From: Mariprofundus sp.
Lineage (GTDB): Bacteria > Pseudomonadota > Zetaproteobacteria > Mariprofundales > Mariprofundaceae
Length of the DNA: 36,727 nt
Reading direction: 5' to 3'
Assembly: GCA_027019785.1 (NCBI GenBank)
Contig: JALUWF010000300.1
Span: 1-36,727, forward strand
Within the stretch, counting starts at the first letter, position 1, and each line of letters begins with the position of its first letter. The notes beneath the pieces are model-generated. The model saw nothing but the letters and a program-made list of their open reading frames with translations, had not been told where the DNA came from and searched no databases. Made by a program: the position numbers and the translations under genes. Shown here piece after piece: positions 4,655 to 21,214 of the stretch.

Positions 4655-5110
4655 TGGCTAACCTCCTTGATTCTTTGTGGGCAAGCTGGCGTTGAATGGC
4701 ATCGGCTTTGAAGTTTTGCTCATTCATAGAGATGCTAAACATGGTTCGTACACCATGCCCAACCATTTCACCCTTATATCCCATCAGCGCATAAACTCGC
4801 CAATGCGTTTCGGTTCCGCGATGGCTGGCCAGTGTTTGGCCTTGCGAGATGGCAGAAGGTCTTTGGTGTTGCCCATCGGGATAGCATCAATCAACCCCTT
4901 ATCACAGGCATATTCCAACACCTGTCGTGTGATTTGGCTGATGCGCTTGGCGAGTTCCAGTGTGTCACGTTTGGCTATATTGGTTAAAAGGTCAGCCGTA
5001 TCGGTTTTTTTGAGAGAGTCAACGGCAATGTCGCCAATGACCGGAAAGACATGCAATTCAAAACGCCGCATAATGGTTTTGGCATGTTTGGCTGACCATC
5101 GGGCTGCACT
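4638..5110 (-). pseudogene. P4-type tyrosine recombinase (integrase), internally deleted relic
   Basis: Two pieces of one integrase family lie side by side. The upstream piece (about 5110 to 4784) gives the core-binding domain: WSAKHAKTIMRRFELHVFP, then IGDIAVDSLKKTD, ending PKRIGEFMR. It stops at a TGA that overlaps, as TGATG, the ATG of the second piece (4784-4638) in another frame. That piece has the C-terminal catalytic segment GYKGEMVGHGVRT (HxxR motif) and AIQRQLAHKE. The N-terminal arm-binding domain, the central part with the first catalytic Arg, and the nucleophilic Tyr end are missing. The protein cannot be active. It identifies the surrounding region as remains of an integrated element. 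Confidence 0.8.
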
Positions 5111-5184
5111 GCAAGAGACCGTGGAAGATCAACCTCTGCGCAATGACCTTCCGCCCTGCATGAAGTGGCTGATTTTATGCGCAA

Positions 5185-17290: not shown

Positions 17291-17318
17291 TTGCTTTCTG
17301 TCCGTATAGGTATATTAT
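17291..17318 (+). promoter_or_regulatory. Candidate promoter of the receiver gene
   Basis: TTGCTT (17291-17296) and TATTAT (17313-17318) are 16 bases apart, 45 bases before the start codon of the receiver protein. The spacing and the A/T-rich -10 fit a sigma-70 promoter, and tolB is transcribed away from it on the other strand. Confidence 0.4.
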
Positions 17319-17362
17319 TGATATTAAAACAGGAAGCTCTCTCCTTTCAGGAGGTAAGATAT

Positions 17363-17824
17363 ATGTTTCATGTTATTGATGATATTCCTGAACTACGGGA
17401 CGTATTGAAAGAACTCATTGTCTGTTCCGGCCACCAGTCGATGCAATTCGACTCAGCCGAGTCATACCTGGAATATTTTGATTCTGATGATTTTGTCGCA
17501 CCTGTGGCTATTTTAAGCGATTATATGATGACCGGAATAACCGGATTCCAACTGATCAAGCAAGTACGGAAGGAATTGCCGTATCAAAAAGCTGTCATCC
17601 TTTCAGGCACGCCCTGCTCTGAATTTCATGCCGATATTGAGTCCCATCTCTGTTATTCATTAACCAAACCTTACAGAATTGAAAAACTGTTTTCCCTGCT
17701 GGAAGCACTGGAAAAGTGCGATCAGCACTGCCAACTGAATCGTGCCAATTTCCAGCAGCCCCGTTGCCAATATGGTCTTGAGCATGAATGCCCGTTTGGC
17801 TCTTTCAAATCCCATCCGGCATAG
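17363..17824 (+). CDS. Stand-alone response-regulator receiver protein with Cys/His-rich tail
   Basis: The 153-residue protein is a CheY-like receiver: acidic pair D6/D7 (HVIDDIPE), phospho-acceptor D53 (ILSDYMM), S81 (VILSGTP) and K102 (SLTKPYR). There is no DNA-binding output domain. Instead a 40-residue tail contains C119, H122, C123, C135, H141 and C143, a spacing that could hold a metal ion or form disulfides. The ATG at 17363 is chosen because of AGGAGG upstream and because the receiver fold starts at once; the frame is open from 17291. No histidine kinase gene is adjacent. It lies divergent to tolB. The partner and role are unknown. Confidence 0.82.
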   Translation: MFHVIDDIPELRDVLKELIVCSGHQSMQFDSAESYLEYFDSDDFVAPVAILSDYMMTGITGFQLIKQVRKELPYQKAVILSGTPCSEFHADIESHLCYSLTKPYRIEKLFSLLEALEKCDQHCQLNRANFQQPRCQYGLEHECPFGSFKSHPA

Positions 17825-17885: not shown

Positions 17886-18455
17886 TCATTGGAACTGTGG
17901 AATAAATGCAGGAACCTGATTACGGTAGTTAGCATATTCAGGATGCTGGGCAATCATTCTCCGCTCTTCAAAACCGGATCCAATCAGAAAATAGAGACAG
18001 ACAGCCAATGCCATATTTAAACTGTTGATGCTCTGCCCGGGGTTAGCCAGTAGCACCAACATCACGCCGCTATACATCGGATGGCGCACATGCCGGTAAA
18101 CCCCGCTAACAATAAATGGGTCGACATCATTATTCTGTGGCCGAAGCCCCACAAACGCCATGCTGTCAATTGGCCGAAATGCCGCCAGCACCACGATGCC
18201 TCCAGCCAGCTGTATGCCGACAAGCAGATAAAACAGCAAACCATCGGCATGATACAACGGACTATCCGGCAACGTATGCATAAACGTCAGCCAAAGCGTC
18301 GTCAATAACAGTGACACTACGGTATAAACCATCCGGTATTGTTGTGCAGAAAGAGCCGACCGGGTGATCGCACGCTTGATGGGTTCCGTCGCCATGAGGC
18401 TATGCACCAGCGCGAACAACAGGGTAGCCAGCCAGACCTGTAGCGCCGCATTCAC
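17886..18455 (-). CDS. ICMT/NnrU-like membrane methyltransferase family protein
   Basis: The 189-residue membrane protein has five or so hydrophobic segments. Its C-terminus has the signature of isoprenylcysteine carboxyl methyltransferase-like and PEMT-like proteins (GVYRHVRHPMYSGV at about residues 120-133, then EERRM, and HPEYANYRNQVPAFIP). Such proteins bind S-adenosylmethionine at the membrane; the bacterial substrates are mostly unknown. The start is probably GTG at 18455 with GAGAG seven bases upstream; a TTG two codons earlier is the alternative. It is the last of four genes on this strand that may be one transcript. Confidence 0.75.
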   Translation of the reverse strand: MNAALQVWLATLLFALVHSLMATEPIKRAITRSALSAQQYRMVYTVVSLLLTTLWLTFMHTLPDSPLYHADGLLFYLLVGIQLAGGIVVLAAFRPIDSMAFVGLRPQNNDVDPFIVSGVYRHVRHPMYSGVMLVLLANPGQSINSLNMALAVCLYFLIGSGFEERRMIAQHPEYANYRNQVPAFIPQFQ

Positions 18456-18516
18456 CCCCAATCTCTCGTATCACAACATATCATGAAGCGATATCATGCA
18501 TTAGAAGGCGCAAAAT

Positions 18517-19218
18517 TCAACGCTTCGCCAACAACCACCCCTCATTCCTGACCCAGCAGTGGCAAAGCCATCCGAGTATGCCACCATAGACAAGGTGGGC
18601 GATGTAGACAGTCAACGGCATGGTCGGCATCTCTCTGCCCATAAAACCGATACCCAGCGCCTGTACGGGCGGACTCAGCAAGAACACAGTGCCGATAATC
18701 ACGCCATAGGCAATACCCCAGAGCATCGTTTTTCTACCCAGCAAGACGGCAAAAATGATACCGAATGATGCGCCATTCCAGTAATGGTATGCATAACCGA
18801 GCATATCCGACATATCTGACGGTCCCACCATAAATTGGTCGGTCAGAAGCACCCCCATCAGCCTTGGCAGATCACCGGGCATGCCGCCGTGATGGAAACT
18901 GTACATACGCACCGCTTCCAACCCGATTGTGGCAATGATTCCGGCACCTGCACCAGCCAACACCCTGTTGACCAGTCTTGTATAACCGTTCAAGCGGGCA
19001 AACAGCAGCGCCGCCAGCAGCACACCAATGGAGGGAAGCAGCAACCACAGGCCCGTCTCCTTCATATCGGCAATACCGGCCTGGGCCGCTACAAAAATAT
19101 TGGGAGAAACGCCTGCTGAAGCCAGAATCAGCAGGCTGGTTAATATCTCGCCCGTGCGTCCGAATGCGAACACCCCATCCAGCGACGATGCTTGTATAGA
19201 ATTAACGTGACAGGACAT
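18517..19218 (-). CDS. Polytopic membrane protein of unknown function
   Basis: I do not recognise the family. The 233-residue product has about six hydrophobic segments (near residues 22-45, 55-75, 82-100, 148-165, 168-185 and 200-222). Between the third and fourth lies a loop with MYSFHHGGMPGDLPRL and a Met/Asp-rich stretch (MVGPSDMSDMLGYAYHYWNG), which could face the periplasm and contact metal or another partner. The ATG at 19218 starts 37 bases after the DUF302 gene, suggesting co-transcription. It could be a transporter-like or sensor-like membrane protein; nothing in the sequence decides this. Confidence 0.65.
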   Translation of the reverse strand: MSCHVNSIQASSLDGVFAFGRTGEILTSLLILASAGVSPNIFVAAQAGIADMKETGLWLLLPSIGVLLAALLFARLNGYTRLVNRVLAGAGAGIIATIGLEAVRMYSFHHGGMPGDLPRLMGVLLTDQFMVGPSDMSDMLGYAYHYWNGASFGIIFAVLLGRKTMLWGIAYGVIIGTVFLLSPPVQALGIGFMGREMPTMPLTVYIAHLVYGGILGWLCHCWVRNEGWLLAKR

Positions 19219-19255
19219 CTTCAGTAAATCCCCGGTTCATTCCAACAAGCCATGC

Positions 19256-19744
19256 CTACATGCCACCCAGCATGCCTGTCATTTTCTTCAACTTGCCATC
19301 GAGCATTCCCGCCACTTTGTTAATCTTGGGATTGTGATAAACGGAGAGAACGCGCGAAGGCGGCACATAGGCGACCATGGTTGATCCATTTGCAGCTTTA
19401 TAGACATTGATGCGTACAGGCACCGCAATGCCAGCGCCGGCATTGGCTCCAAACAGCTTCTTGCCCACTGTGGCATTACCCACGAAAATACTTTCAGATT
19501 CAATGCTCAGACCGACCATGGACATCACTCGACCCTGATGCAATTCGCCCATCACCATCATGCCATTCTTATGCACCATGCCCTTGAGACGGTCAACTAC
19601 GTCGGACACTGACCCCGATGCTTTGACCTGCACGGTCAGGTCATCCGCTTGGGCGACGGCAGGTAAACCGCTCAACATACCTGCGGACAGAATCAGCGCG
19701 GCCCATGTAAGTTTTGATCGTTGTTTTTTCACTGTATTACTCAT
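19256..19744 (-). CDS. Exported DUF302-domain protein
   Basis: The 162-residue product has a clear Sec signal (LTWAALILSAGMLSGLPAVAQA, spanning about residues 12-33). It is followed by a DUF302-like domain (VVDRLKGMVHKNGMMVMGELHQG, then a core rich in Val and Gly). DUF302 proteins are small periplasmic or cytoplasmic folds found near metal-resistance and sulfur-metabolism genes; their biochemistry is not settled. The C-terminus is Lys/Met/Gly-rich. AGGAG precedes the ATG. It sits between the Met-rich exported protein and the membrane protein on the same strand. Confidence 0.72.
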   Translation of the reverse strand: MSNTVKKQRSKLTWAALILSAGMLSGLPAVAQADDLTVQVKASGSVSDVVDRLKGMVHKNGMMVMGELHQGRVMSMVGLSIESESIFVGNATVGKKLFGANAGAGIAVPVRINVYKAANGSTMVAYVPPSRVLSVYHNPKINKVAGMLDGKLKKMTGMLGGM

Positions 19745-19903
19745 TGTATTTCTCCTATGTCGGATGAATTTCCGTCAGCCGCCTGCGTTAACATGAAACA
19801 AACGCAGGATAGCTACGGCATCACCCCAAGAGTCGGGAAATGGAAATAAAGATTACACGGAACCGATGGAATCCGCGCGTGATTGCCTATCAGATCAATA
19901 CTG

Positions 19904-21091
19904 TCAATGACTAATACGTAAATCAGATCGACGCATGCCGAACATGACATGCATAAATGGCTGGCCGAAGAACTTGTCGCCTTCCATCATCGCCTGCACC
20001 ATGGACTCCTTGGTGCGCGCCATCAGCTCCTTGACCTCCATCATGCGCTTCTTCATCGCCTTCTTTTGCGACGGCGTCATGTTCTTCGACTGTTTCAGCA
20101 TCTTCATTTTTGCCATCATCAGTTTCTTGATAGCAGCGAACGGCGCATAGCCGGTTTTCACCGGTGCCAGTTCAGGGCCATGCGGGGTAATTTTATAGGG
20201 AGGAACCATCAGATGCATGGTCACGCCGTGCGGGTCCACGCCACCGTCAAATTGCAAATCCTGCTTGTCGCCTCGCACTAACTCGCCAATCATCATGTGA
20301 ACAATCTGTCCGTCATTGACCAATTTACCATTGCGATAAATCTTGCCAGTGCCCCAAAAGCCAGCATAGGTAAACTCCGTCGGCATCAAACGCGTACCAA
20401 TTCCCGTAGCGCCATGCAACAAGTGATTGGTCACCACCCCACCGAAGAACGGATAACCCATGCCGTGCGGCAGCGCCTTCTTGACCACCACGCGATAGGT
20501 AAATTTGCCATCCGGACTCTTGAACGAGGCATCAAAATCAACCTTGTCCTTGGTTCTGGCGCCATCAATGGCCGTCGCATCCACCAGATTCATCTTGACG
20601 CTGCCAACGCCCACCGTCATCCAGTCGGAGAACGGCGTGGCATGATCCACGAACGTATATTTACCGTTTTCCGACCGCAACCAACTGGGTTGCATGCCGA
20701 TCAACGGAAACGGCGCCTGTTCCCAGCCCACAGGATGCGCCGGCGTGCCGAACACAGCTGGATCGACAAAACGGGGGCCGGGCAATGTCCAGCGCGTGCT
20801 GGTATTCTTTTTCACCAGACCAACCCTGATCGGCCCGCCCAGCAAATCCGGCGGATTGGCTACCCTGGCATGGCTCATGGTGTAGGCGTACAGACCGATA
20901 TGGGGCAGCCCATTGTCCATACCTGGCATAAATCCCATATGCCTGCCTGACTCGGCCTGCGCCGCAGTAAGTGGAAGCATCCACAGGATCATCGCCATAA
21001 GACTCAGGGTGATTTTGTAGAGCAGGTTGTCTGCCCATGTAACAGGTGAAAACTTTACAGGAAAGTTGTTAAAAACGGTTGATTGACTCAT
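19904..21091 (-). CDS. Met-rich exported protein of unknown function
   Basis: I do not recognise this 395-residue protein. A hydrophobic stretch near residues 26-46 (LSLMAMILWMLPLTAAQA) after a 25-residue polar start looks like a Sec signal with a long n-region. The ATG at 21091 is supported by AAGGAGG. The mature start is Met/His/Gly-rich (GRHMGFMPGMDNGLPHIG). The middle is beta-like. The last 70 residues are Met/Lys-rich and helical (about 15 Met), for example KKLMMAKMKMLKQ and KKRMMEVKELM. Such composition can bind copper or other soft metals, but that is only a suggestion. It heads the four-gene cluster. Confidence 0.65.
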   Translation of the reverse strand: MSQSTVFNNFPVKFSPVTWADNLLYKITLSLMAMILWMLPLTAAQAESGRHMGFMPGMDNGLPHIGLYAYTMSHARVANPPDLLGGPIRVGLVKKNTSTRWTLPGPRFVDPAVFGTPAHPVGWEQAPFPLIGMQPSWLRSENGKYTFVDHATPFSDWMTVGVGSVKMNLVDATAIDGARTKDKVDFDASFKSPDGKFTYRVVVKKALPHGMGYPFFGGVVTNHLLHGATGIGTRLMPTEFTYAGFWGTGKIYRNGKLVNDGQIVHMMIGELVRGDKQDLQFDGGVDPHGVTMHLMVPPYKITPHGPELAPVKTGYAPFAAIKKLMMAKMKMLKQSKNMTPSQKKAMKKRMMEVKELMARTKESMVQAMMEGDKFFGQPFMHVMFGMRRSDLRISH

Positions 21092-21214
21092 TCCGCCCTC
21101 CTTGCATACAGCACAATATACGACGCCTGTGTATGCTTACTGCATCGCAGACGGCTCACCCTTCACATGGATGTGATGACTAGACGATACAGAGGAGGTA
21201 TTTCTTACAACGCG

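Follow-up and report, generated by a model that had tools for sequence, protein, structure and literature searches.

Gene content of the locus

The analyzed window is a 36,727-nucleotide stretch of a Mariprofundus sp. genome (contig C300 of genome G000, an assembly of 413 contigs with a size of 2.87 Mb and a completeness of 94.6%), in which four consecutive genes, designated A to D, and two promoter-like sites were found on the minus strand. Gene A (19904–21091) encodes an exported Met-rich protein of 395 amino acids (aa) belonging to an unnamed family, gene B (19256–19744) an exported DUF302 protein of 162 aa, gene C (18517–19218) a polytopic membrane protein of 233 aa that is a divergent relative of DUF6789, and gene D (17886–18461) an NnrU-type membrane protein of 191 aa. 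The promoter-like sites are of the extracytoplasmic function (ECF) type: one precedes A (21182–21209, TGTAA-N18-CGTCT), and the other lies upstream of B inside the A–B gap (19831–19857, TGTAA-N17-CGACT).

The original prediction treated the four genes as a single envelope cluster. All four open reading frames (ORFs) are indeed present in a row, and the predicted gaps of 159 and 37 bases were confirmed, while the third gap is 55 rather than 61 bases, the latter value corresponding to a start of D at GTG 18455. The cluster as such did not hold, since D stands apart from A-B-C in G007, the closest relative holding these three genes. Proteins A and B look exported and are Met-rich, as predicted (8.1% and 8.0% Met, respectively), and each has a hydrophobic stretch at the N-terminus and lacks Cys. 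The assignment of B to DUF302 (PF03625, 31.3 bits vs the Pfam gathering cut-off of 23) and the His/Met/Gly loop of C (FHHGGMPGDLPRL) proved to be real, and this loop is identical in G007 and kept in part in genome G039. Protein D had been described as ICMT-like, but its PF04140 score of 20.2 is under the gathering cut-off of 24; it passes NnrU (PF07298, 42.6 vs 24.7), and its score against the NCBIfam methanethiol S-methyltransferase MddA, 68.3, does not reach the cut-off of 270. Strong matches to D (E below 1e-15) were found in 46 of the 78 genomes of the class, and matches at E 0.001 in 58. A response regulator gene with a receiver domain (17291–17824) is convergent with D and is still beside it in G007.

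Location of A-B-C in two genomes

The gene order in G007 is GlpX, IMPase, HflK, HflC, DUF2065, D, response regulator, and TolB, where DUF2065 and the response regulator were recognized by profile matches and the other five neighbors of D were named by eye. The interval between DUF2065 and D is empty in this genome, and it is exactly this interval that A-B-C occupies in the window. G007 carries A-B-C elsewhere, flanked by genes for a peptidyl-prolyl isomerase and a cmoB-like protein (names by eye), and the corresponding site of G000 contains a lone second DUF302 gene, B' (L018 8443–9060, contig C232). The B' protein shares 82.5% identity with B over 126 residues and has a lipoprotein-like start, as judged by eye.

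DNA homology between the cassettes of the window and G007 extends from the promoter-like site of A (21209) to the stop codon of C (18517), with 82% identity over 2,459 columns and 75% over 267 columns at the 5' end. Matches of the flanks to the DUF2065 and D regions of G007 end at window position 21214 and resume at 18479 (points 7768 and 7825 of G007 locus L077), delimiting an inserted stretch at 18480–21213; these limits are the ends of local alignments and are precise to a few bases at best. Since A-B-C is at another site in G007 and D has stayed in place, the A-B-C genes of the window represent a cassette, about 2.7 kb long, that was inserted there. The two arrangements show A, B, and C to be a unit running from the promoter-like site to the stop codon of C, and D, part of the resident flank, to lie outside it. 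Thus, the scattering of the genes in relatives, which the original prediction had named as evidence against a cluster, was observed for D, and not for A-B-C.

Gene A and its cupredoxin partner

No family of Pfam or NCBIfam matched A above the cut-off. The gene was present in 6 of 61 genomes (G000 included) and in 9 of 398 genomes of the phylum, eight of them from the same family, again with G000, and the ninth being the distant genome G184; a search of 293 genomes around G184 returned only G184 itself. Within the genus, 4 of 23 genomes contain A, counting that of the window. A tblastn search of 72,556 plasmid records found four records, haloarchaeal without exception. Among genome contigs, short peptide patterns of A matched 31 stretches, two of which were relatives, and in viral contigs a pattern search gave 17 matches with no relative of A among them. 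A belongs to a rare family for which neither Pfam nor NCBIfam has a model.

Six residues of A (H226, H265, M267, H293, H381, and M383) are invariant in all 12 aligned homologues, a set leaving out Natrinema thermotolerans and G032. The Met-rich helical tail of A is absent from G184 and the haloarchaeal homologues. In G007, A (L011 948–2642) has 152 additional residues past the signal region, and a 168-aa piece containing them had no Pfam match at E 0.1. No fold was assigned to A, since both of its structure models were too weak. Fold searches gave no convincing match, returning a low-Z mixture of beta-barrel and long-helix structures; the best VIA match was AlkL (Z 5.7, root-mean-square deviation 4.5, 112 aligned), and the A1 profile had a single match among solved structures, with an E of 0.29. 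The missing fold match proves nothing.

In each of the 11 further A loci whose 3' side could be read, A is either followed by a cupredoxin gene (seven bacterial and one haloarchaeal) or fused to a cupredoxin domain (three haloarchaeal). The bacterial loci, all with cupredoxin next on the strand of A (7 of 7), are those of G018, G019, G031, G255, G097, G184, and L012 of a metagenome-assembled genome; this count excludes the two loci with B-C (G000 and G007) and G032, whose contig ends inside A. All seven neighbors score above the PF00127 cut-off of 21.2 (25.3–40.1). In H. mediterranei, the gene after A is annotated as a cupredoxin protein (PF00127, 34.3). Fusion of the C-terminus of A to the cupredoxin domain was found in Natrinema sp. 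SYSU A 869, Halomontanus rarus, and N. thermotolerans, and the excised tails of these proteins score 26.6–29.5 against PF00127, each above the cut-off. The L040 tail matched one antibody chain among solved structures (E 0.0042), which was judged to be chance. Profile A2, representing the bacterial A-type cupredoxin, had seven matches in six of the 78 class genomes. Five of them cover at least 93 of 123 positions, and all five adjoin A; the remaining two are short, covering 45 positions in G255 and 27 in G182, and lie away from it. Outside the two genomes with B-C, the A family is tied to a cupredoxin; in G000 and G007, A is followed by B-C instead, and Pfam and NCBIfam scans revealed no cupredoxin domain in A-D of the window.

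Some other genes were noted around these loci. An outer-membrane protein is encoded after the cupredoxin in G019 (L015 9988–11388) and G018 (L016 2128–3486), with an Alginate_exp match for the G019 copy. In N. thermotolerans, a DUF7405/Dyp-peroxidase-like Tat protein is encoded just 5' of the fused A-cupredoxin gene (L147 2401–3684). In G031, the ArsS and ArsM-like genes are directly followed by A and the cupredoxin gene (L014 3646–7699), with the promoter-like motif at the start of the ArsS ORF and before A.

Genes B and C

Protein B is 91% identical to its G007 counterpart. Its profile matches the DUF302 structures 7tj1 (E 7.5e-6) and 1q9u (E 2.9e-4); the likeness consists in this profile match, whereas B, unlike these proteins, is exported and Met-rich, and the entry names suggest no function for it. 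C has multiple hydrophobic stretches and scores 22.6 against DUF6789 (PF20587), under the gathering cut-off of 27.1, while its G039 homologue clears this cut-off with 33.1; C is therefore called only DUF6789-related. Matches to C were found in 5 of the 78 class genomes at E 0.001, and strong ones in G000, G007, and G039 only. Close copies of B (E 5.2e-82 or better) occur in the same three genomes, and 12 weaker places in 12 others. B and C are adjacent in all three genomes with a strong C match. Since A was not found in G039, where B and C are also neighbors, B-C also exists as a pair without A.

Promoter-like sites and the ECF sigma factor

The site of A in the window consists of GTAAGAAAT and CGTCTAGT separated by 13 nt, and the same promoter-like site is present 5' of both A and B in G007. 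A search for TGTAA-N16..18-CG[ACT]CT within 250 bases upstream of the genes found the motif before seven of nine bacterial A genes, with G184 counted apart, and three of four B genes. It was missing upstream of three C, two D, and five cupredoxin genes. In 2000 dinucleotide shuffles, the motif appeared four times for the upstream region of A in the window and once for that of B (0–12 across regions). Twenty sequences, chosen since most of them hold A, B, or C genes, contain 12 sites in 511,512 bases of strand, compared with about 3.3 in simple shuffles; ten of these precede A or B, one lies 5' of a DUF6789 gene in G014, and one is that at the ArsS ORF start of G031. A genome-wide regulon derived from the motif count was considered and rejected: the motif was not enriched, and many relaxed sites fell inside predicted ORFs or had no convincing downstream gene.

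The motif was also seen at other genes. A short exported protein with Cys/Met/His repeats of the MNPCNPCGMHHKM type is encoded 3' of the ArsS–ArsM-like genes in G000 (L125 591–929, contig C370), with a promoter-like site at 950–976, just 5' of the gene; this protein and ArsS share the motif, and we do not claim that they are regulon members. An exact motif 87 bases upstream of a gene for an exported TIGR04073-family protein (L124 5033–5410, contig C24 of G000) may be due to chance.

The sites resemble, as sequence elements, the meningococcal sigma-E promoter, whose consensus is GTMAGBWTT, 12–13 nt, CGTCTAAH in the available part of the report (PMC2893595). With spacers of 12–13 nt, they agree with it at 6–8 of nine positions in the first element and 5–7 of eight in the second. 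The site of A in the window matches 7/9 and 7/8 positions with a spacer of 13, and that of B 8/9 and 5/8 with a spacer of 12.

The G000 genome encodes an ECF sigma factor (contig C264, 5114–5719; TIGR02943, 178.1 vs the cut-off of 162.2) followed by an overlapping gene for a zinc-finger anti-sigma factor (4860–5117; zf-HC2, 29.0 vs 22.2), a protein of 85 residues in which no membrane span was seen by eye. In G031, a TIGR02943 sigma/anti-sigma pair lies beside A-cupredoxin, convergent with both genes. Used as a query, the G031 sigma factor gave one match in G000, with an E of 2.1e-75, and matches in 71 of the 78 class genomes at E 0.001. We infer that the TIGR02943 sigma factor may read the promoter-like sites of A and B.

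Comparison with known systems

Meningococcal sigma-E is held by the zinc-type anti-sigma factor MseR (PMC2893595). The two systems are alike in having an ECF sigma factor with a zinc-type anti-sigma factor and a small, here putative, stress regulon, and their -35 and -10 elements, with a 12–13 nt spacer, look similar (PMC2893595, PMC3240639). The sigma-E-type trait of G000 is the ECF sigma gene followed by that of a zinc-type anti-sigma factor without a membrane span; it was likened to the meningococcal pair by family rather than by direct homology to NMB2144/NMB2145. The targets differ: the available parts of these reports give msrA/msrB and the operon of the sigma factor itself, with no mention of A, B, or C. 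In G000, the sigma gene was not seen to have such a site nearby.

The Gig module of Cupriavidus metallidurans is similar in being a small module of putative envelope proteins located by a sigma/anti-sigma pair and induced by copper and gold, according to the accessible part of its description (PMC10304878). The same source presents GigPABT as other proteins (small periplasmic GigP, DUF2063 protein GigB, and DoxX-like GigT), the anti-sigma factor RsqA as predicted to be membrane-bound, and the control of gig by RpoQ as unproven (PMC10304878). Genes of the GigA/GigB type were not found among A-D, which match other families or none. CopI-type copper tolerance likewise involves a cupredoxin-like protein with His/Met-rich regions, as stated in the part of the paper available (PMC13308877), whereas A is of a different family and has no cupredoxin alongside it in the window. 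No description of A-B-C, or of A with cupredoxin, was found among the literature titles and abstract openings that were listed. The main text of PMC12452194 mentions none of ECF, DUF302, cupredoxin, and DUF6789; the literature found for DUF6789 was a nematode paper, and that for TIGR02943 was unrelated by title.

Proposed function and alternative explanations

We give an even chance to the proposal that A-B-C is an envelope-stress module under ECF control that deals with copper or some other thiophilic metal, with B-C in the place of cupredoxin. Thiol or metal stress would free the sigma factor from its anti-sigma factor, and the freed sigma factor would switch on A and B-C. In the periplasm, A would bind copper or another thiophilic metal via its invariant His and Met residues. 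The cupredoxin of other A loci would accept from A either the metal or an electron; in the Mariprofundus lineage, this role would have passed to the membrane protein C together with B. We infer the metal identity, the pairing of sigma factor and promoter, and the biochemistry of A-B-C. The cupredoxin fusion and neighborhood of A, together with the invariant His and Met residues, are the strongest support for such a module. It is also possible, though doubtful, that A represents a new family of periplasmic copper-binding metalloproteins found in bacteria and haloarchaea with a cupredoxin partner, for which a DUF302/DUF6789-like pair was substituted in Mariprofundus.

A number of observations weigh against the proposed module. 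Its weakest links are that the A2 cupredoxin was not found in the window genome and that A has no reliable structure: profile A2 had no match in G000 or G007, where other cupredoxins were not searched for, the two models of A had mean pLDDT (predicted local distance difference test) values of 44.5 and 56.5, and Foldseek found nothing at E<=0.001 for the latter. When the fused haloarchaeal proteins of Natrinema sp. SYSU A 869 and Halomontanus rarus were scanned at full length against Pfam, nothing was found at E 0.1, and only their excised tails pass. Among the A loci read, only that of G031 has a sigma pair near A, and its anti-sigma factor scores under the zf-HC2 cut-off (20.6 vs 22.2). The 8.6-kb contig carrying the sigma gene of G000 contains no motif. 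The motif is also missing upstream of B' and of the A genes of G032, G097, G184, and three haloarchaea, and its -10 element is mostly CGACT rather than CGTCT across the loci (CGCCT at B of G039). Genome-wide enrichment was absent in G000 (4 exact sites vs 8 in the reversed control; 12 relaxed sites vs 24) and G007 (11 relaxed sites vs 17). In addition, the motif was first spotted by eye in the same regions in which it was later tested, and the counts are not independent because several loci are close relatives.

The Met content of A and B, about 8%, could also reflect a sacrificial role, in which both proteins soak up periplasmic oxidants and methionine sulfoxide reductase repairs them, with metal being secondary. 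The drive of msrA/msrB by meningococcal sigma-E from a similar promoter, described in the part of the report available (PMC3240639), points in this direction. However, it is four His and two Met, rather than the Met-rich helical tail, that are invariant, this tail is lacking in G184 and the haloarchaeal homologues, and the partner of A is a cupredoxin, so we consider this role unlikely. Equally improbable is that A is unrelated to B-C and that these stress genes share a regulator and a site by chance; each does occur apart from the other and B has a promoter-like site of its own, but in two genomes A accompanies B-C, each time at a different site.

Relatives of Mariprofundus are iron oxidizers, and A-B-C might accordingly take part in electron transfer during Fe(II) oxidation, a role that the cupredoxin after A, and the outer-membrane protein in G018 and G019, would suit. 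This iron-oxidation module was rejected as highly improbable given the sparse spread of A within the genus, its occurrence in haloarchaea, and the stress type of the promoter-like site. The same distribution, including the low frequency of A in the phylum, gives no support to the link to iron lithotrophy made in the original prediction, whereas its more general suggestion that a metal or redox cofactor is handled at the envelope gains support from the cupredoxin partners of A homologues, the invariant His and Met residues, and the ECF-type promoter-like sites. For such metal handling by A-B-C, copper appears to fit better than iron. The least credible alternative is a single operon of A, B, C, and D with one function, which the shared strand and the 55-base C–D gap would favor. 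The G007 arrangement, with D in place without A-B-C, contradicts it as an ancestral unit; strong matches to D are found in 46 of the 78 class genomes compared with three for C, and G018, G019, and G255 have A with no match to D (G019 and G255 being 78% and 68% complete, respectively).

If A does represent a new metalloprotein family whose cupredoxin partner was replaced in Mariprofundus, two widespread domains of unknown function, DUF302 and DUF6789, would gain their first role, one in metal stress at the envelope. Three families of unknown function, those of A, DUF302, and DUF6789, would be brought into one regulon-like setting, with a chemistry that can be tested. The archaeal fusion and the partner swap in Mariprofundus lead to the specific prediction that A works with a copper protein and that B-C can replace it. 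A-B-C would also be an example of an envelope-stress unit moved as a promoter-to-stop cassette.

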